Source: Thermoplasmata archaeon | GTDB lineage: Archaea > Thermoplasmatota > Thermoplasmata > WALJ01 | DNA: 45,078 bases | Reading direction: 5' to 3' | Assembly: GCA_027006785.1 (NCBI GenBank) | Contig: JALTFR010000038.1 | Location: forward strand, 1 to 45,078 | Part shown: positions 1-41,974 of the stretch, in pieces | Layout: each line of letters starts with the position of its first letter | Position numbering within the stretch: the stretch's first letter is position 1 | Made by a program: the position numbers and the translations under genes | The notes under the pieces: model-generated | What the model was told of the DNA's origin: nothing | The model's database searches: none | The model's input: only the letters and a program-made list of their open reading frames with translations

Positions 1-3000
1 GTCTATGCCGGAACCATCATCAGAACCAGTCCAATTGACGGTAACATTGGACGATGTGATTGTCTCTCCGTCGGATGGCGATATTATGGAAACACTGGGT
101 GGTGTAGTATCGCTTTCGCTTATTTTAATCTCGATTTCCTCTGTTTTTGCAGTCGTGTTGTATGAATTTCTTGCATATATAGAATATCTTATTACGCCAG
201 AGCGGTTTTGAGGAGGTATTACATATGTGTATAGATAGTCTCCAGAAGGTGTCATGCTCACATTGTGATAGAGTCCATCTACATCCGTATAGTTCAATCT
301 AACTTCTGATATGCTGACAGCCGAGGTAACTATGGCACTAATGTTTATGTTTTCGTGAGATTTATGTGCGTGAGGTATGGATGCTAAGCCCAAAATTTTA
401 GGTGAAGTGAGATTTTGTATGCTTTTATAGTTGTACATTGTACCGTCTAGTTGCTCCCAGCCTATGAAGTTCTTCGTATGTGCATAGATGTGGGATTTGG
501 AATAGAGCGGTACATATGGTTGGTCATATCCTATGGCCTCCTGCAATTGGAAATCTATCTCTCTAGCTTTTTTTGTGTTGTTATTTATCTCATAGTGCAT
601 AGAGTCACATAGCTGGTCAAAGCTCTGATTGTGATAACCCGGATAGTTATTGCCAAAGCCTGAATTCAACACTAGATCTTGCTTGGAACTAAAGAAATCA
701 CAGGGTGCTGTTGCGGACGATAACGGTGTAGGTATAGCCCATCCGAGCATGTACATATCAAAATCTCCATTTTGTATCTTGGTGAATATCGTTCTAAAAT
801 TGGTATGTACAGCTTTTATATTCAATCCGACTTTTGTTGCATTTTCCTGTATCATTTCTGCTATTTTGGCCCTTACAGGATCATATGATTTTGGAGGTGT
901 AAGTATATATAGTGGGTCACTGCCTCTTTTTGGAAGATCTCTGAATCCATCTCCATCCTTATCTATATATCCAGCATTATCTAAAATCTCGTTAGCTTTC
1001 GTTATATTATAGTCATATGCTTTCACATTCGGGTCATGCCAGAACGAATTTGCCTCGGTTACCACGGAATTCTCCGCATTTCCATATCCTTTTAGGAGTT
1101 TATCCACAATATATGTCTTGTTTATGAGATGGGCAATGGCAAGTCTCAAGGGTTTTCCAACATCCGTATAGTTGCCTTTGTCATATGTAGGTGGATTTCC
1201 GCCGTCTGATTTGCTGTAGTTTTTATATCCAATGTCCGGGTCCCTCATGTTGAATGCCAGATAGAAAAATCCAAGATCTCCGACTTTTTCAATGGCTACG
1301 TTGGAGAAATTGCGCGCGTATTCTGCTCGCAGTATCCCCATGTCCCAATCTATATAGTCTGTTTTGTTCCTAGTAAGAGAGACCATGGCTGCAGAGGAGA
1401 TGTCATATCCTCCCATGACGCTGAATTTCATCCCTGAAATTTTTGGAGTTTTCTCGAAATAGTCCCAAAATGTGCTTATTTCTCCCACATGCTTGGAATA
1501 ATCCCAGTAGTCGAATTTAAAGGGGCCGAAGTTTATCAGCGCTTTTGGATTAGACCATGTGAGTTTGTCTGATATGTGGTCTTTCCATATTCTTTCAGGG
1601 AATATAAACGAATTTAGAGTGTTTTCTATGTTTGTCCTATATGTTGTAAAGTAATGCAATGTAAGGTCGTCCTTATCTTCCCATACATAGACCACAGGCA
1701 GATCCGGATATTTTTTCTGAGATGAAAGATTAACCCAATAAGGGAGTTTTTTCACTCCCGTACCATTCCAGTCGATGAGTTGAATCGTACCGTTAGAAGG
1801 CAAGTCTCTTCCGTACATGATGGAACCATCATCCTTTCTCGCTGTAACGGCATCTGTCATACCCATATATCTCGGTACATCTGCCACGAGTCTGAGTGAG
1901 AATATAACATCGTGAGCTTTTACCGTCTGATTCTTCACATCTTGAGACTTCCAGTCATGCCATTTTATATCATCCTTCAATTTCACAGTCCAGTTCCGGT
2001 AATCTGTATTGTTGTCATTGTCTGGATATCCTACGGATGTGTCCCATGTGCTTTCAGGTCCGTGGTGGAACCATTCTGCAGCCCATGGCTCTAAGTGGTA
2101 ATCATTGGAGTAGTTTTTCCATACTAGGCCATCGAAACACCATTCAATAACATCCCATGTCCACATATCCCATAGATAGATAGATAGCGGATTAAATGTC
2201 ATGATATCGTGTTCCATTGTTACTCTTAGCTTTCCAACGCCAGTTGTGTTTATAATATAGGGGTAAGACGAATTCAGCGGATTAGTAAGCACTCCGGAAT
2301 CATTTTTTGCTTCAATGTAGTATTCTATCTTCTCTCCACCCTTACTTGGGGATATATATCCATAGTATGTTTCTCCAATACCTCCGTTATCCATCTTAAC
2401 TGACCTATAGGGGGAGTTTCCTATTCTATACCACAAGGTAACTTCACTAGCACCTGCAACTTCTGCTTTTATTGGAATAACAGTATTCATTACTGCTTTG
2501 TTAACAGGGTAATGTCTTATAACCATTCCCTTATCGGATAATATTTCTGTGGAGTATATCCCTGTTTTGGCGGTGTTTATTCCGTCAGATACCTCTATGT
2601 AATAGTAAATCTTTCCTGTTAATGATTGGGCAGGTATTGTTCCTGTGTAATATTCCTCACTTATGGGGTTCATAGGAGTCGAAGAAAAGTTGGAATCTCC
2701 AACTCCTTTATACCACAAAGTAGCAGTTTTGACTGAGAAATCGTCGGTTATTTTTGCCATTATCTCTGTAGAATTTCCAATGGAATTCATTTCATAGCCA
2801 TTGTGTTCAATTTCAGGGGCTTTTTCATCCCACAGTGTGAAATTCCATGAAATTTCGGCCGAATTTCCTTTTAGGTCTTCAGCGTAAATTTTGAGCGTGT
2901 GATTTCCCACACTCATTTTCGTGGATGGCATACTTGTCAGTGTATAGGCATATTCTCGGTCATCTGGTATCAAAGTATCTTTCTGCATGTTTCCATCAAT

Positions 3001-4602
3001 CCACAGTTTAATCGATGTCTTATCGACGCCCAATAGATCGTCTGATATCTTTGCTTGTATTAGTGGTAGTGAATCACTTATATTTGAAGATGGTTCTGGT
3101 GATAAAATATTAAAAATAGGTCCTTTTTTATCATATGCTGAGTTCTTAAGCGGGTAGTAATCACGATTTCCTTTTAGGAGATATGGCCAGTCCACAACCC
3201 CATCATTGTTTTTGTCGTTTGTATTGTTATTTTCAGCCCAATCGAGCCAGAAGTTTCCTTTACCACTGTTATTCCAGTAATTATTCCCACCATCAAATGC
3301 CTGACCTGACAGGTAGTCTTTGAAATAATGGGAAGTCCTTTTATTAAAATAGAATTCGTTTTTCCATATTCTACTTCCATTGCTTCTGTTATCAAAATAT
3401 ATTCCGTAATCTGTATTTTTTATAAGAACATTTTTATATATCTTCAAATTGCTAGAATTTTCTACATAGATACCGTAGTTTCCGTCTCTTATCACTAGGG
3501 AAGAGATGTTTTTGCTGGTAGAATTGAAGACATATGCACCATAAACTGAAGCTGAAATTTCCATATCGTTTCCTGTGACATTTGAATTTTCGGAAACGAT
3601 TCCGTAAGGGAGGTTCTTTATTGTAGTGTTTATGAGATTTACAGAGCTGTTTTTCAGAGATATCCCCGCACTTCCATCTCTCGTCATTATCTTCATATCG
3701 AAATGACCGGGTTTTTCATTCACATGGTAACCAGCCACCTTTATAATATATGTCCCGCTTACTGGAAGGTTAAGAGCCACTTCTTCGTCAGCATCAGCAT
3801 CAGCGCAATATTTGATAAATTCAGATTTTTGAGCCTTACCATCTTTAGGTGCTCCACCCTTTCCGTCCAAGAATACGCCGAGGTCCAAATCCGGAGAGTC
3901 AAACCATCCCCATATATGGACGTCAAAATAGGATTCATTGGTTATGTTGAATAATTTTGTATATGTGGCATTTGCAAGATACCATATGTAATCACCGCCA
4001 GTATAATTATATTGGTTTATCGGAATTCCATATTCTGCATTTTCGTATTGACTACAGGTAAAGGTGGAATTGTAAATATTGTAGCTAGCGTTTGAAGAGA
4101 AAGCCCCTATCTTGTTGCCTTCTAATAGGTTACCATCGATCCGTGGAGAACTACTGTTAAAAGCATATATCCCATAGTAGTTGTCTTTTAATGTAACATT
4201 GTAAATCAGAGAACTGCCGCTGTTGTTGTATAGTTCTATTCCTGCCCCTACAAAATAAGAAGTTGAATTATAACTGGCATTATAAATGAGGCAGTTTCGT
4301 ATTACAAAAGAGTCGGTTGTATTTCCTATATAACCACCATAAGTATATCCTGTTGCATTAATCTCATAGTTCTCTATTATATACGGGTCATCCTGCGTAC
4401 CGCTCCCCGAACTCGCCGCACTAGCGAGGTCCGAGTTGTTGTTTATCCTTATAGGCTCATGGCCTGTCAGCATCGGCTCCGGATTCTCAGGAGCGGATGA
4501 TATCTCATCGCCATTCTCATAGCCCGTACTTTCATTCACCATCACCATGAACCCGCTCGCCAGCATGAGCAGGATTATTGCGATTGAGATTGCTTTTTTC
4601 AT
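1..4602 (-). CDS. Giant secreted beta-helix / Ig-like / family 5 solute-binding fusion protein (C-terminus beyond window)
   Basis: I read this frame codon by codon from the ATG at 4602 to base 1: 1534 codons with no stop, so the gene continues beyond the left edge. Layout, approximate residues: signal or anchor helix 1-22; NosD-like parallel beta-helix repeats 60-195 and 300-485; a PPC-like beta-sandwich (about 198-292) inserted between them; three Ig-like beta modules 490-785; a complete SBP_bac_5 (OppA/DppA-type) domain 787-1390, with the family's LRLAIAHLINK and DKDGDGFRDLP motifs; further Ig-like modules from about 1400. SBP_bac_5 proteins capture peptides or other solutes for ABC importers; here the domain sits inside a surface adhesin-like scaffold. 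A ribosome site, GAGGTGG, lies just before the ATG. The body is visibly AT-richer than the neighbouring genes, while the first 75 codons are not. No transporter genes are in view. Domain calls are by eye; SBP_bac_5 is the surest. Confidence 0.9.
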   Translation of the reverse strand, partial: MKKAISIAIILLMLASGFMVMVNESTGYENGDEISSAPENPEPMLTGHEPIRINNNSDLASAASSGSGTQDDPYIIENYEINATGYTYGGYIGNTTDSFVIRNCLIYNASYNSTSYFVGAGIELYNNSGSSLIYNVTLKDNYYGIYAFNSSSPRIDGNLLEGNKIGAFSSNASYNIYNSTFTCSQYENAEYGIPINQYNYTGGDYIWYLANATYTKLFNITNESYFDVHIWGWFDSPDLDLGVFLDGKGGAPKDGKAQKSEFIKYCADADADEEVALNLPVSGTYIIKVAGYHVNEKPGHFDMKIMTRDGSAGISLKNSSVNLINTTIKNLPYGIVSENSNVTGNDMEISASVYGAYVFNSTSKNISSLVIRDGNYGIYVENSSNLKIYKNVLIKNTDYGIYFDNRSNGSRIWKNEFYFNKRTSHYFKDYLSGQAFDGGNNYWNNSGKGNFWLDWAENNNTNDKNNDGVVDWPYLLKGNRDYYPLKNSAYDKKGPIFNILSPEPSSNISDSLPLIQAKISDDLLGVDKTSIKLWIDGNMQKDTLIPDDREYAYTLTSMPSTKMSVGNHTLKIYAEDLKGNSAEISWNFTLWDEKAPEIEHNGYEMNSIGNSTEIMAKITDDFSVKTATLWYKGVGDSNFSSTPMNPISEEYYTGTIPAQSLTGKIYYYIEVSDGINTAKTGIYSTEILSDKGMVIRHYPVNKAVMNTVIPIKAEVAGASEVTLWYRIGNSPYRSVKMDNGGIGETYYGYISPSKGGEKIEYYIEAKNDSGVLTNPLNSSYPYIINTTGVGKLRVTMEHDIMTFNPLSIYLWDMWTWDVIEWCFDGLVWKNYSNDYHLEPWAAEWFHHGPESTWDTSVGYPDNDNNTDYRNWTVKLKDDIKWHDWKSQDVKNQTVKAHDVIFSLRLVADVPRYMGMTDAVTARKDDGSIMYGRDLPSNGTIQLIDWNGTGVKKLPYWVNLSSQKKYPDLPVVYVWEDKDDLTLHYFTTYRTNIENTLNSFIFPERIWKDHISDKLTWSNPKALINFGPFKFDYWDYSKHVGEISTFWDYFEKTPKISGMKFSVMGGYDISSAAMVSLTRNKTDYIDWDMGILRAEYARNFSNVAIEKVGDLGFFYLAFNMRDPDIGYKNYSKSDGGNPPTYDKGNYTDVGKPLRLAIAHLINKTYIVDKLLKGYGNAENSVVTEANSFWHDPNVKAYDYNITKANEILDNAGYIDKDGDGFRDLPKRGSDPLYILTPPKSYDPVRAKIAEMIQENATKVGLNIKAVHTNFRTIFTKIQNGDFDMYMLGWAIPTPLSSATAPCDFFSSKQDLVLNSGFGNNYPGYHNQSFDQLCDSMHYEINNNTKKAREIDFQLQEAIGYDQPYVPLYSKSHIYAHTKNFIGWEQLDGTMYNYKSIQNLTSPKILGLASIPHAHKSHENINISAIVTSAVSISEVRLNYTDVDGLYHNVSMTPSGDYLYTYVIPPQNRSGVIRYSIYARNSYNTTAKTEEIEIKISESDTTPPSVSIISPSDGETITSSNVTVNWTGSDDGSGID

Positions 4603-5586: not shown

Positions 5587-8112
5587 CTACCACTCAACCC
5601 TCCAGACACAGTCTGAGCCCACATATATCCAGTAGCCGGTTCCAGGTACCATGGTATCCTGCTCTGAAAGCGATATCAGAGCACCCGTATCGTTGGCCGT
5701 TCTGAGGAATTCATAGGAAATCTCCGAGAATGCGTCTCCCACGGCCCTTGTGAAGTTGCCGGAGGGATATCCGATGAGATTCCACCCTTTGTGAAGGGAT
5801 ATGTTGGTTGTTCCCCCATCCAGTGCTTTTCCCAGAATGGCACCTGAAGAGTTGCAGTGCAACCAGATGCCCATTGTATTGTCCACCATCGGGAATCCGA
5901 GGTTGAACTTATTGCCCCTGTTCACATTGTATGTGTACCAGATTCCGTTCATATAGACCATTGCTCTGTCCCATGATACCCCGTTAATGGCATCGCTTAT
6001 GTTAACAGGAGTGTCAAGCCATGGTATTGATATGAGGTTCCATCCTTCCGTCACCCTCACTGCCATGTATCCCATAGGCTGCATGAGAGGATAACTGTCT
6101 GGGTTTCCCCCGGTTCCTCCTATATCAGAGTAAGGTGTGTCCCCTATGCCATCGCTGCCGGATTTGTTCTGCCCTGGGCCTGAGTATATGTCGTTACCGC
6201 TGTAATCGGACCAGTAATTTCCACCTGTGGGATAGGATACATTCCACAGATTATCATCGCCTCCATCCCATGCCTGCTTCTCATTATCTATGAAGTTGTT
6301 GTGGTATATCTGGTTCTCATCCCCACTGCTTATGTAAAATCCGTATTTCCCGCTTTTGTAAACGGTGTTGTTGAAGAAGGTGTTCTCATAGCTGGATGAG
6401 GAAAGATAGATGCCGTAGTAGTTCCACATTATCCCATTATCGGCAACAGAGTTCCTGAAACTGCTGGAAGTCATATAAATACCTGCATATCCACTGTGGT
6501 GAATGGTGTTATTGGATATAACGGAGTAGTCTGATGAGTATATGTCCACACCATATTTGTTATCCGCCATAGAATTTCCGTGAATGAAGTTGTGGTTCGA
6601 GGAATACAGGTATATCCCCTCATCACTGTTCTCCTCCAGGGTGTTGTTCATTATCTGGTTGTTGTCAGACTCATATACAACTATTCCGCTGTCATCGTTT
6701 GATGCCACAGTATTGTTCCATATGGAGCCGTAGTTGGAATAGTACAGATATATGCCGTCGTTGGTGTTGCCGGAGGCGATGTTATGGTGAACCTCACAGT
6801 GATCTGAATCCTTTACCTCTATACCTCTGGAGTTGTTCTCCGCCCTGTTCCCATATACTCTGGAATAGCTGGATGAGAACACGAGCACTCCCTTGTCGTT
6901 TCCCTCCAGATAATTTCCGTATATGGTGTTGCTGTTGGAATCGAAGGCCTCTATCCCTGCTCCATCGTTCCCAATCACCGTGTTGTTGGATATGGTGTTG
7001 TTCTCGCTGTTGTGCCACAGATATACGCCTTCACCGCTGTTCTTAACAGTATTGTCAGATATGGTGTTATTGCTGGATGAATCAAGGTATATCGATTCAT
7101 CAGCGTTCGATGTGAAAGAACACCCCACAATATCATTCCAGTTGGAACCATCCATGAGTATTCCATTCTCTCCGTTGCTGGATGCATTGCAACCGTATAC
7201 TGTTGTGTTGTCAGAGGAATAGAGGTGTATACCATAATGGCCGTTGAAAGAGGCGGTGATGTTCATGAGCCTGCAACCAGATGAGAACGCAACTATGGCC
7301 CCGATTGAACCTTTATTCAGTTCCTGGCCTTCAACTGTGACATTTTTGCAACTGACAAGTATTACCTCTCCTGAGCTCTCCGACAGTGTCATGTTCTCCT
7401 CGTTCTTAATGTAATATATCGGCTTTCCATTCACCGTGTTCGTTGTATCTATCTCATGTGAGGCCCAGTAGGATGCCGTGAAACCGGACATCTCTATGCT
7501 GTCGTTAACGAATGCGTTGTTAGAAAGGGAATTGTTGGACGAGCTCAGATACACCCCCCAATCATTATCCGCTATGCTGTTGTTCTCCACCACATTGTAT
7601 GACGAATCGAGATATATTCCGTAATCCGAGTTCGAGGATATGGTGTTGTTGGAAATCCTGTTGTAGTCCGAGATGAAGACATATATCCCGCTTCCCGTGT
7701 TGTATTCCACGGTATTGTTATCCACGACACCGTTCTCCACATCATAGAGCACTATGCCTGAGTTCCAGTGATAGGTCCACGAATTCCCGCTGGCATGGTG
7801 TACCGTGCAATTCCTTATTATGAAATGCACCGTCGTGTTTCCAATGTATATGCAATATCCTGCATCGCTCCCATCTATGTCGTAATTCTCTATGATGTAT
7901 GGGTTGTCCGCGGAACCATTTCCTTTCCACCCCTCAGAATTCGCTTTTTCAGAGAAGTCGGAATTACTGTCTATCCTTATCGGATCGTGGGAATCATAGG
8001 CCTTTTCCTGCGGAGAGCCAGCGCTCCCCGTCACCCCATATATGGGTACAATGGACGCCGTTGAAAGGGCAAGCAACATCAAGACCAGAACTATGGATGA
8101 TGCTCTTCTCAT
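5587..8112 (-). CDS. Secreted NosD-like parallel beta-helix repeat protein
   Basis: 841 residues from the ATG at 8112; the longer open frame to 8172 adds residues before a clear signal peptide (MRRASSIVLVLMLLALSTAS), so the shorter start is preferred. After a linker comes a conserved entry motif (PIRIDSNSDF, then DNPYIIENYDIDG), then about 25 short beta-helix coils rich in Asn and Ser (patterns such as NNTISSN and GIYLYSS) over roughly residues 70-640. The last 160 residues hold two related modules starting GWNLISIPW and GWNLIGYPS and ending GTGYWIYVG, often found at the end of archaeal secreted proteins. Such proteins are normally cell-surface carbohydrate-binding or structural proteins; the ligand cannot be told. 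Its N-terminus is clearly paralogous to that of the giant protein to the left. Confidence 0.9.
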   Translation of the reverse strand: MRRASSIVLVLMLLALSTASIVPIYGVTGSAGSPQEKAYDSHDPIRIDSNSDFSEKANSEGWKGNGSADNPYIIENYDIDGSDAGYCIYIGNTTVHFIIRNCTVHHASGNSWTYHWNSGIVLYDVENGVVDNNTVEYNTGSGIYVFISDYNRISNNTISSNSDYGIYLDSSYNVVENNSIADNDWGVYLSSSNNSLSNNAFVNDSIEMSGFTASYWASHEIDTTNTVNGKPIYYIKNEENMTLSESSGEVILVSCKNVTVEGQELNKGSIGAIVAFSSGCRLMNITASFNGHYGIHLYSSDNTTVYGCNASSNGENGILMDGSNWNDIVGCSFTSNADESIYLDSSSNNTISDNTVKNSGEGVYLWHNSENNTISNNTVIGNDGAGIEAFDSNSNTIYGNYLEGNDKGVLVFSSSYSRVYGNRAENNSRGIEVKDSDHCEVHHNIASGNTNDGIYLYYSNYGSIWNNTVASNDDSGIVVYESDNNQIMNNTLEENSDEGIYLYSSNHNFIHGNSMADNKYGVDIYSSDYSVISNNTIHHSGYAGIYMTSSSFRNSVADNGIMWNYYGIYLSSSSYENTFFNNTVYKSGKYGFYISSGDENQIYHNNFIDNEKQAWDGGDDNLWNVSYPTGGNYWSDYSGNDIYSGPGQNKSGSDGIGDTPYSDIGGTGGNPDSYPLMQPMGYMAVRVTEGWNLISIPWLDTPVNISDAINGVSWDRAMVYMNGIWYTYNVNRGNKFNLGFPMVDNTMGIWLHCNSSGAILGKALDGGTTNISLHKGWNLIGYPSGNFTRAVGDAFSEISYEFLRTANDTGALISLSEQDTMVPGTGYWIYVGSDCVWRVEW

Positions 8113-8173
8113 GGTCACACCTTCTCTCCTCCATGAGCCACTTTGAAAGATAAAAAACTTATCTGAACACATG

Positions 8174-39820: not shown

Positions 39821-41974
39821 TCACCTTATCTTGTCCAGTGAGAACGAGCCCATATCTATGCCGCTCTTGCTGAATGTGTACCTTATCCACGCCCTGCTCT
39901 GGACATCACATATTCCCCTGACAGCCAGGAAGTTCCTGAGGTTCTCCACCTTGAACTCTATGGTTCCGTCCATCAGGTGGCCGAGCATGGAGATGTCAGT
40001 CTCGGAGTGCATTCCCTTCTCAATAGCATAAAGGGCAACGGCCCTCTCCCTTTTCCTCTTTCCGACAAAGGGTTGAAGGAACTTGAACGCTGTGTTCGGG
40101 TCAAGGTATGCGATGAGGGTTGAAACCGACATAAAGGCCAGCCTGTAATATGGGTGCTTCTCCTTGTATCTATTTGCAACCTCATCCACCGCTTTCAGTA
40201 TCGCATCGGTATCTGTGGCATCCTCAATGTATGTCGTATTCGGTTCCTCGGAGGAATCCCCCATGCTTCTTGAGTAGGAATCAACATAGCTCACAAGACC
40301 CATCTCTTCGTATTCCTCATATGTCGGAAGAACGAACATCATCTCCTCCCTTATCTGGGCCACGGACTTGTCGGTGAGGACCCATATGCCCGGTATTCCC
40401 TTCTTCAGGCCTTCAGCTATGAAAGAATTTACAAGAACCTCCTTTCCAACGAAGGCCGGACCATAGAGCAGTATGTTCGAACCTATCGGGAAACCACCGT
40501 ACAGCAGGTCGTCCAGCCTTGGGGTGCCCGTCTTTATCTTCTCCTGCTTGAGCTCTATCTTTATCTCCTCTTCTCTCGCCTCTATCTCCTTCTCCACCAT
40601 TCCCTGCTCCATCTCACGGAGTTCTTCCATCTTGTTCCTTATATACTGCTCCCTGACCTTCAGTTCTTCTTCCTTGCGTGCAATCTCTCTCTCAAGGTCC
40701 TCCAGCCTGCGTTTCATCTCCTGCTGCTCTATGCTGCCGACATCCTGCTGTGCATGCTGGAGCTTTCTGAGCTCTGCCTTCAGGACCTCTTCCCTGTGCC
40801 TGAGGTCCTCTTCCCTTCTAAGAAGCTCATCTTCCTTGAATTTCAGCGGTTCTCTGAGCTTCTCCAGCTCATCTTCCTTGAATTTCAACTGCTCTTTAAG
40901 GCGCTCTATCTCCTTCTCTCTGACCTCTACCTCCTTTTCCTTTGATGCGAGCGCCCGTTCCTTCTCCAGAATCTTCTTTTTCTCTTCCGGAAGGTCCTTG
41001 ATCTTCTCCAGATCTATCATAACTGCGGTGCCGGCCTGAGCCTTGAGGGATTCCACTTCAACCTCAAGCTTGGATATCTTTTCCTCGTATTCCTCCTTCT
41101 GCTTCTCGAATTCGGATTCCTTTGCCCTGAGTTCGGCCTCGAACTGTGCCCTTAGCTGTTCTACACGCTCCTCGCTAGCCTCAGCGCTTATCTGGGTTAT
41201 CTTCTCCTGCAGAAGGTTCAGTTCATCCTCTTTGGCCTTGAGCTCGGCTTCCTTATCTATTATCTGCATTTCACGCTCTTTAGCTGCCTTTTCATCCTCG
41301 GGCATCTTTTCCTTCAGAAGGGCGATTTCCTGTTCTTTGGCCTTCAGCTGTATTTCCAGCCACTTCTTGGAGTGCTCCGCAGCCTCAAGCTTTGCTTTCA
41401 GCTCCCTCGTCCCAGCTTCCTTCATCTTCTTCTGCTGTTCCTTAACATATTTTATGAGGGCAACACTGCTCCTCTTTAGCTTCTGGACCTCCTTTTTCAG
41501 GCTTGCAACCTCTTTTCTGGAGCGCTCCAGTTCAAGTCTTAGTTTCTCACGCTCTTCCACCAATTTCTCCGCATCGAAACCGTCCTTTGAGAATGCTTTG
41601 AGTTCCTCCCGGATAATGTTCTGCATCCCCTCCATCTCTGATTCGAGGTCCTCTATCCTCTTTTTCAGCTCTGCTATCTCCCTGTCCTTTTCCTTGAGTT
41701 CCTTTTTCTTCTCCTCAAGTTCCTTGACAACCTCAGGTGAAGGCGATGCTAGATCCTCGTTCAACCAGCTGTGGAACGCATCATCCTCTCCCTCGAGCCA
41801 CCTCTTGAGAGCCTCGGCGCTATCGTCATCCGCGGAAGAGACTGCAGTCTCAGAGACCACCGCATCTCCTCCTTTAAGCCAGTCGAGAAGGTTGTCCTCC
41901 TTTTGCTCCTTTTTAGGGGGAGCCTTCTTTTTAGGCTTTTTCTTAAGATTGAGCTTTTCACCCAAAACTGGCAC
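39821..41974 (-). CDS. Long coiled-coil protein with a degenerate KaiC/RecA-like domain
   Basis: 717 residues, GTG start at 41974 with GAGG before it and a TATA box (AAGTATAAATATAAG, about 42007-42021) upstream. Residues 1-35 are basic and disordered (KKKPKKKAPPKKEQK); two short motifs DNLLDWLKGG and DDAFHSWLNEDL follow. About residues 75-470 are a continuous coiled coil, including a duplicated 14-residue unit. From about 475 a RecA/KaiC-type domain begins (RLDDLLYGGFPIGSNILLYG). Its P-loop reads GPAFVGKE, with Glu where Ser or Thr should bind Mg-ATP, and the Walker B strand (YRLAFMSVSTLIAYL) lacks the acidic residue. It may bind but not hydrolyse nucleotide. Function unknown. Confidence 0.88.
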   Translation of the reverse strand: MPVLGEKLNLKKKPKKKAPPKKEQKEDNLLDWLKGGDAVVSETAVSSADDDSAEALKRWLEGEDDAFHSWLNEDLASPSPEVVKELEEKKKELKEKDREIAELKKRIEDLESEMEGMQNIIREELKAFSKDGFDAEKLVEEREKLRLELERSRKEVASLKKEVQKLKRSSVALIKYVKEQQKKMKEAGTRELKAKLEAAEHSKKWLEIQLKAKEQEIALLKEKMPEDEKAAKEREMQIIDKEAELKAKEDELNLLQEKITQISAEASEERVEQLRAQFEAELRAKESEFEKQKEEYEEKISKLEVEVESLKAQAGTAVMIDLEKIKDLPEEKKKILEKERALASKEKEVEVREKEIERLKEQLKFKEDELEKLREPLKFKEDELLRREEDLRHREEVLKAELRKLQHAQQDVGSIEQQEMKRRLEDLEREIARKEEELKVREQYIRNKMEELREMEQGMVEKEIEAREEEIKIELKQEKIKTGTPRLDDLLYGGFPIGSNILLYGPAFVGKEVLVNSFIAEGLKKGIPGIWVLTDKSVAQIREEMMFVLPTYEEYEEMGLVSYVDSYSRSMGDSSEEPNTTYIEDATDTDAILKAVDEVANRYKEKHPYYRLAFMSVSTLIAYLDPNTAFKFLQPFVGKRKRERAVALYAIEKGMHSETDISMLGHLMDGTIEFKVENLRNFLAVRGICDVQSRAWIRYTFSKSGIDMGSFSLDKIR
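40824..40887 (-). repeat. 22-base direct repeat in the coiled-coil gene
   Basis: The same 22 bases lie at 40824-40845 and 40866-40887, a period of 42 bases (14 codons, two heptads). They encode LKFKEDEL twice. This points to a recent duplication that keeps the coiled-coil phase. Confidence 0.85.

Follow-up and report, generated by a model that had tools for sequence, protein, structure and literature searches.

What is a complete oligopeptide-binding domain doing in the interior of a giant archaeal surface chain? The question is raised by the left end of a 45,078-nt stretch of DNA from a Thermoplasmata archaeon. This stretch, the window, is contig C38 of a 1.33-Mb metagenome-assembled genome in 49 contigs with a completeness of 90%. 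A minus-strand reading frame starts with ATG at 4602 and, as already noted in the preliminary description, runs without a stop to base 1 (1534 codons), where the gene overruns the contig edge (Table 1).

Table 1. Coordinates of the giant gene, its predicted domains and the end repeat (window positions unless a contig is named).
Feature	Position	Strand	Basis or remark
Giant surface protein gene	1..4602	(-)	residues 1-1534 of ~1842; remainder on contig C9
Signal peptide, class I type, ~residues 1-27	4522..4602	(-)	sequence; hydropathy maximum at residues 3-5
Right-handed beta-helix, first half, ~residues 47-184	4051..4464	(-)	para_beta_helix stretches; AlphaFold2, pLDDT mostly 60-86
PPC-like domain within beta-helix, ~residues 200-313	3664..4005	(-)	homology to L061, alignment
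Beta-helix, second half, NosD-like, ~residues 314-457	3232..3663	(-)	Pfam PF05048/PF13229; AlphaFold2
Ig-like module 1, ~residues 493-588	2839..3126	(-)	AlphaFold2, Foldseek
Ig-like module 2, ~residues 590-688	2539..2835	(-)	AlphaFold2, Foldseek
Ig-like module 3, ~residues 690-786	2245..2535	(-)	AlphaFold2, Foldseek
Full-length SBP_bac_5, residues 791-1402	397..2232	(-)	Pfam, local profile, PDB relatives, alignment with own-genome SBP
Central SBP segment, residues 1061-1260	823..1422	(-)	common to G015 giant only; segment trees, sliding identity
Ig-like module 4, ~residues 1404-1497	112..393	(-)	alignment with L043; strands of pLDDT ~49-84 in an otherwise poor model
Start of Big_7 Ig repeat, residue 1502 on, cut at contig end	1..99	(-)	Pfam
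117-bp exact repeat	C38:1-117	.	also C9:3-119 and C9:288-404; C38-C9 join, assembly break

The layout described earlier, a NosD-like beta-helix interrupted by a PPC-like domain, then a solute-binding protein (SBP) domain between Ig-like modules, is borne out by Pfam, by homology and by structure prediction. Pfam matches are NosD (PF05048, residues 306-454, 48.5 bits) and Beta_helix (PF13229, residues 312-457, 45.7 bits). True NosD, of nitrous oxide reductase maturation, is not matched (TIGR04247, 40.3 bits versus a cut-off of 300), and the two proteins have the fold alone in common. PPC (PF04151) gave no match in the Pfam search of the window protein; the homologous region of a relative, L061, aligned column by column, is matched at 26.9 bits versus a cut-off of 25.9. 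In the AlphaFold2 model of residues 28-790, two beta-helix halves flank a low-confidence insert of 126 residues and are followed by three Ig-like modules (block confidence mostly 65-89), for which the Foldseek matches are Ig chains. Ig-type sequence resumes after the SBP, with Big_7 recognised by Pfam. The AlphaFold2 model of the Ig-SBP-Ig part, built on four sequences, has a mean pLDDT of 41.8, too low for the binding pocket to be judged. No enzymatic domain is present on the window protein.

The sequence beyond base 1, which the preliminary description left to be sought, is located on contig C9. The C9-edge reading frame was found by searching the window's own genome with the C-terminal part of the giant of a related genome, G015. 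The C38 end and the C9 start agree at 118 of 119 positions, and the 117-base core of this overlap occurs at three places only in the whole genome. The assembly breaks here because the element is an Ig repeat; as it sits in a tandem Ig array, the number of Ig units in the joined protein is uncertain. On C9 the chain continues with Ig repeats and a CarboxypepD_reg domain and ends with a transmembrane helix and an acidic tail. The chain, first read as longer than 1534 residues, is thereby extended to 1842 aa, in which the most hydrophobic stretches are residues 1767-1775 and the N-terminal signal. By sequence and hydropathy the N-terminus looks like a class I signal peptide; a lipobox cysteine is absent, the first Cys being residue 104. 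With its C-terminal helix the joined product is a predicted type I surface protein of ~1842 residues, anchored in the membrane at the C-terminus. About 370 residues of Ig-type stalk separate the embedded SBP from the membrane helix. The joined protein contains 57 sequons, versus 19.9 in shuffled sequences (maximum 32 in 500 shuffles). The SBP part contains 17 versus 5.4 expected, and the stand-alone Opp-linked SBP of contig C16 contains 11 versus 8.8 expected. The excess is consistent with a glycosylated, outer-surface location, short of proof. Directly 3' of the giant on C9 are genes read as 2-oxoacid:ferredoxin oxidoreductase and indolepyruvate:ferredoxin oxidoreductase, which would fit amino-acid fermentation.

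The embedded SBP is a whole domain rather than a fragment. SBP_bac_5, expected at residues 787-1390, is found by profile search at 791-1402. The Pfam core (PF00496) covers residues 863-1293 (150.8 bits, 7.4e-44, versus a cut-off of 32.4), and a profile from local homologues widens it to the full span. The domain starts at the point where mature stand-alone SBPs begin, with no signal peptide immediately before it. With the operon-linked SBP from its own genome it shares 55% identity.

Four SBP_5 proteins, the giant and three stand-alone ones, are encoded in this genome versus one Opp-type DppB/DppC permease pair. The pair belongs to a five-gene operon on C16 (SBP-DppB-DppC-DppD-DppF). For the stand-alone SBPs of C27 and C48, an adjacent permease was not found in the stretches read. 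A second permease may be missing, since the genome is 90% complete. The three stand-alone SBPs are 859-918 aa long and carry Big_1-type/Ig-like domains after the SBP and a C-terminal hydrophobic helix. The statement that family 5 SBPs are normally free lipoproteins of 500-600 residues thus fails in this lineage, where they bear a stalk and an anchor.

The spread of the layout was determined in the class. Of 300 sampled genomes, 237 have SBP_5 domains, and many of these domains lie in frames of 1,200-2,900 aa. In the other long SBP_5 frames read, giants excluded, the start of the SBP falls at residue 30-98, after a signal peptide; long proteins with an N-terminal SBP are ordinary in the class. 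A full-span match to the PPC-Ig-Ig-Ig-SBP layout, searched with profile A1, is present in 7 of the 400 genomes sampled from the class, belonging to five families (the window genome, G014, G015, G017, G036, G057 and G065, all read). A phylum-wide draw of 390 genomes gave no further full-span match at a stricter cut-off. The architecture is rare but recurrent, its unusual feature being the interior position of the SBP behind a PPC-Ig array rather than the length of the protein. Literature searches within an open-access library turned up no account of an SBP_bac_5 domain in the interior of proteins of this kind.

The carriers are not uniform. The G015 protein is entire in one contig (contig 68, 2137 aa), 50% identical to the window protein over window residues 1-1528, and ends in Big_5 and Big_7 repeats, CarboxypepD_reg, a membrane helix and a charged tail. 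G017 and G036 each have one divergent SBP (47-55 bits to the local profile), without the beta-helix. G014 and G057 have two different SBP_bac_5 domains in tandem per giant (L046 5941-12639 and L131 1475-8551). The G065 protein (L132 2-6340, G065:C37) is a single chain of a subtilase-like domain, PPC, Ig, SBP_bac_5 and Ig; its frame is open at both ends of the contig and starts, at the contig edge, within the subtilase-like domain. The catalytic-serine motif there is GPGLSTP, versus GTSLASP in the giant subtilase of the same genome. The subtilase-like domain is probably inactive because the catalytic Ser is changed, which weakens the case for a protease and an SBP cooperating on one chain. As for the PPC-Ig array, it occurs widely among the giant subtilases of the class; the PPC-like part of the one on contig C9 is 54% identical to that of the window giant. 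Two further loci were recorded in carrier genomes. Four stand-alone SBP_5 genes of ~925 aa each stand in a tandem row at L074 3289-14412 (G014:C93). A 2499-aa surface protein at L072 4097-11593 (G017:C10) has matches to WD40-type propellers and subtilase, PPC-like and Ig parts, with GSH instead of GTS at the serine of its subtilase.

The history of the embedded SBP bears on its function. In sliding windows the window and G015 giants are ~55-72% alike in the middle of the SBP, whereas in the flanks each resembles the stand-alone SBPs from its own genome or family, with identities of up to 91-100% over short stretches. A tree of residues 791-1045 rejects the two giants as sisters (p-AU 1e-43) and makes the G015 giant sister to the G015 DppA (100/99). 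For residues 1061-1260 the two giants are sisters (100/100), and grouping of the G015 giant with its own DppA is rejected (p 1.4e-5). For residues 1268-1360 they are again not sisters (p 0.014). These p-values are somewhat optimistic, since the segments were picked after the identity profile had been viewed. The whole-SBP tree rejects the two giants together (p 0.029) and is misleading alone because the segments disagree. On these trees the SBP of the closest relative, G015, is a phylogenetic mosaic, two segments going with its own DppA and the centre with the window giant. In the shared segments four-fold sites are saturated, with an identity of only ~35-50%, whereas the protein there is 60-100% identical; the event is accordingly old, and selection has maintained the protein sequence. 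Recent gene conversion and assembly chimerism are rejected as causes by the same four-fold identity. The pattern agrees with two histories. In one, the giant is ancestral and was overwritten in both lineages; in the other, it arose in the family of the window genome, was passed to the lineage of G015 and was overwritten there. By either route at least one lineage swapped about two-thirds of its embedded SBP for resident DppA sequence. A shared permease would favour such an outcome, and the recombination with an ordinary transporter SBP hints that giant and DppA may feed one uptake machine.

A tethered surface protein that captures peptides and delivers them to the single DppBCDF permease is the overall reading, and its chances are about even. 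The beta-helix/PPC/Ig array would be the outer part, probably N-glycosylated, and would place the SBP within the surface layer or outside it, perhaps close to the giant subtilases of the cell, which bear a like array; the beta-helix/PPC part would serve in adhesion or as a scaffold. The SBP would bind released oligopeptides, dock to the cell's only DppBCDF permease and deliver the peptide. The architecture is well supported; the peptide ligand, docking, delivery, glycosylation, the surface-layer position and the role of the beta-helix/PPC part are inferred. The suggestion made earlier, that capture of a polymer is coupled to uptake of its fragments, is plausible. In its favour are the occurrence of the PPC-Ig array in giant subtilases, the fusion in G065 and the DppA mosaic in G015. 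Against it stand the changed serine of G065, the lack of an enzyme domain on the window protein and the lack of transporter genes beside it. A more specific form is rather unlikely as a whole. Peptides from the cell's giant surface proteases would be caught by an SBP in the same layer and handed to a permease shared with the free SBPs; the permease-contacting parts of this capture arm would be kept compatible by recombination with DppA, with a propeller in DppC as a possible docking post. DppC of the sole Opp-type operon (L041 2112-4481, G000:C16) is 790 aa long. Its OppC_N helix occupies 18-55 and its permease domain 602-788, and a PQQ/BamB-type beta-propeller, with 237-383 as the best stretch, lies in between. 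Given this order, the propeller is placed externally, after the first membrane helix. DppC of G015 is likewise enlarged (L134 from 7487).

The embedded SBP may instead be transport-free, a ligand-binding or adhesive module of an S-layer-associated protein in which the fold is kept for peptides or for protein-protein contacts; this is a real possibility, though well short of even. No transporter frames are seen beside the giant's gene in the window, DppBCDF lying on C16 with another SBP, and the domain lies interior in the chain. The divergent SBPs of G017 and G036 point the same way, as does the G065 subtilase without its catalytic Ser, a sign that such arrays retain dead enzymes as modules. 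However, the window domain is full-length and has strong PDB relatives, and the DppA-derived two-thirds of the G015 SBP has stayed conserved in protein despite saturated silent sites, an argument that the surface under constraint is the one constrained in DppA.

That the embedded SBP binds sugars or another solute rather than peptides is improbable. SBP family 5 includes sugar binders, and the PDB matches extend to proteins that bind a mannoside or chitin oligosaccharides. The best solved relatives of the domain, searched with its homologues as a profile, are nevertheless AppA (1xoc, 1.9e-53), 8efz and DppA (1dpp, 1.1e-37), the alignment to AppA/DppA covering positions 65-561 of 571, nearly the whole domain, and a homologous stand-alone SBP stands in the five-gene DppABCDF operon; neither fixes the ligand. 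In DppA an Asp holds the peptide amino group. The embedded SBP has no clear counterpart of it after the GW motif, though AppA seems to differ there too. The domain is predicted to be an AppA/DppA-like oligopeptide binder. An assembly or binning artefact, to which the 49 contigs and the repeat at the contig edge might point, is hardly credible, since the layout recurs in six other genomes, in G015 within a single contig, and the frame is open across all domain junctions; for residues 1-1528 it is refuted by these independent genomes, leaving aside the join to C9 and the number of repeats.

The layout is real and uncommon, and extends the known SBP_5 surface proteins. DppA of Escherichia coli and AppA of Bacillus subtilis are single-domain proteins, free or lipid-anchored. 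The giant's SBP has their complete family 5 fold by sequence, but is embedded at residue 791 of ~1842 aa and is without permease genes of its own. Long Thermoplasmatota SBP_5 surface proteins (to 2,940 aa) share the SBP, class I type signal, Ig-like stalk and C-terminal membrane helix; in them the SBP is the first domain, whereas in the giant it comes after beta-helix, PPC and three Ig modules. The giant subtilases of the class have a homologous PPC-Ig array, but bear Peptidase_S8 without an SBP, G065 alone combining the two. SGBP-B of Bacteroides ovatus (PDB 6e57), a multidomain glycan binder, is the best Foldseek match to the giant's Ig chain and likewise presents a binding module on an Ig stalk at the cell surface. 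It differs in its binding module and in belonging to a bacterial outer-membrane glycan system, and the whole-model TM-score is low (0.12/0.19). The bindosome SBPs of Sulfolobus are also archaeal SBPs arranged at the cell surface/S-layer; they bind sugars, have class III (pilin-like) signal peptides and are assembled by a pilus-type system (PMC2910488), in contrast to the class I type signal, read by eye and hydropathy, and C-terminal helix of the giant. In MBG-D archaea, which are Thermoplasmata relatives, peptide transport and fermentation have been inferred, and a family 5 SBP is among the expressed genes listed (PMC6461988). The SBP is here an interior module of very large archaeal surface proteins, repeated in one class and linked by recombination to an ordinary transporter gene. 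Should peptides in fact be delivered to the permease, uptake in these probably peptide-fermenting archaea would be organised on surface arrays as well as on ordinary SBPs.

Two other genes of the window were recorded. An 861-aa secreted NosD/beta-helix repeat protein is encoded at 5587-8172, on the giant's strand and two genes upstream of it. A 717-aa protein at 39821-41974 has a long charged coiled-coil and a C-terminal part with a Walker A-like motif (GPAFVGKE) recognised by eye; this part is perhaps KaiC/RecA-like.
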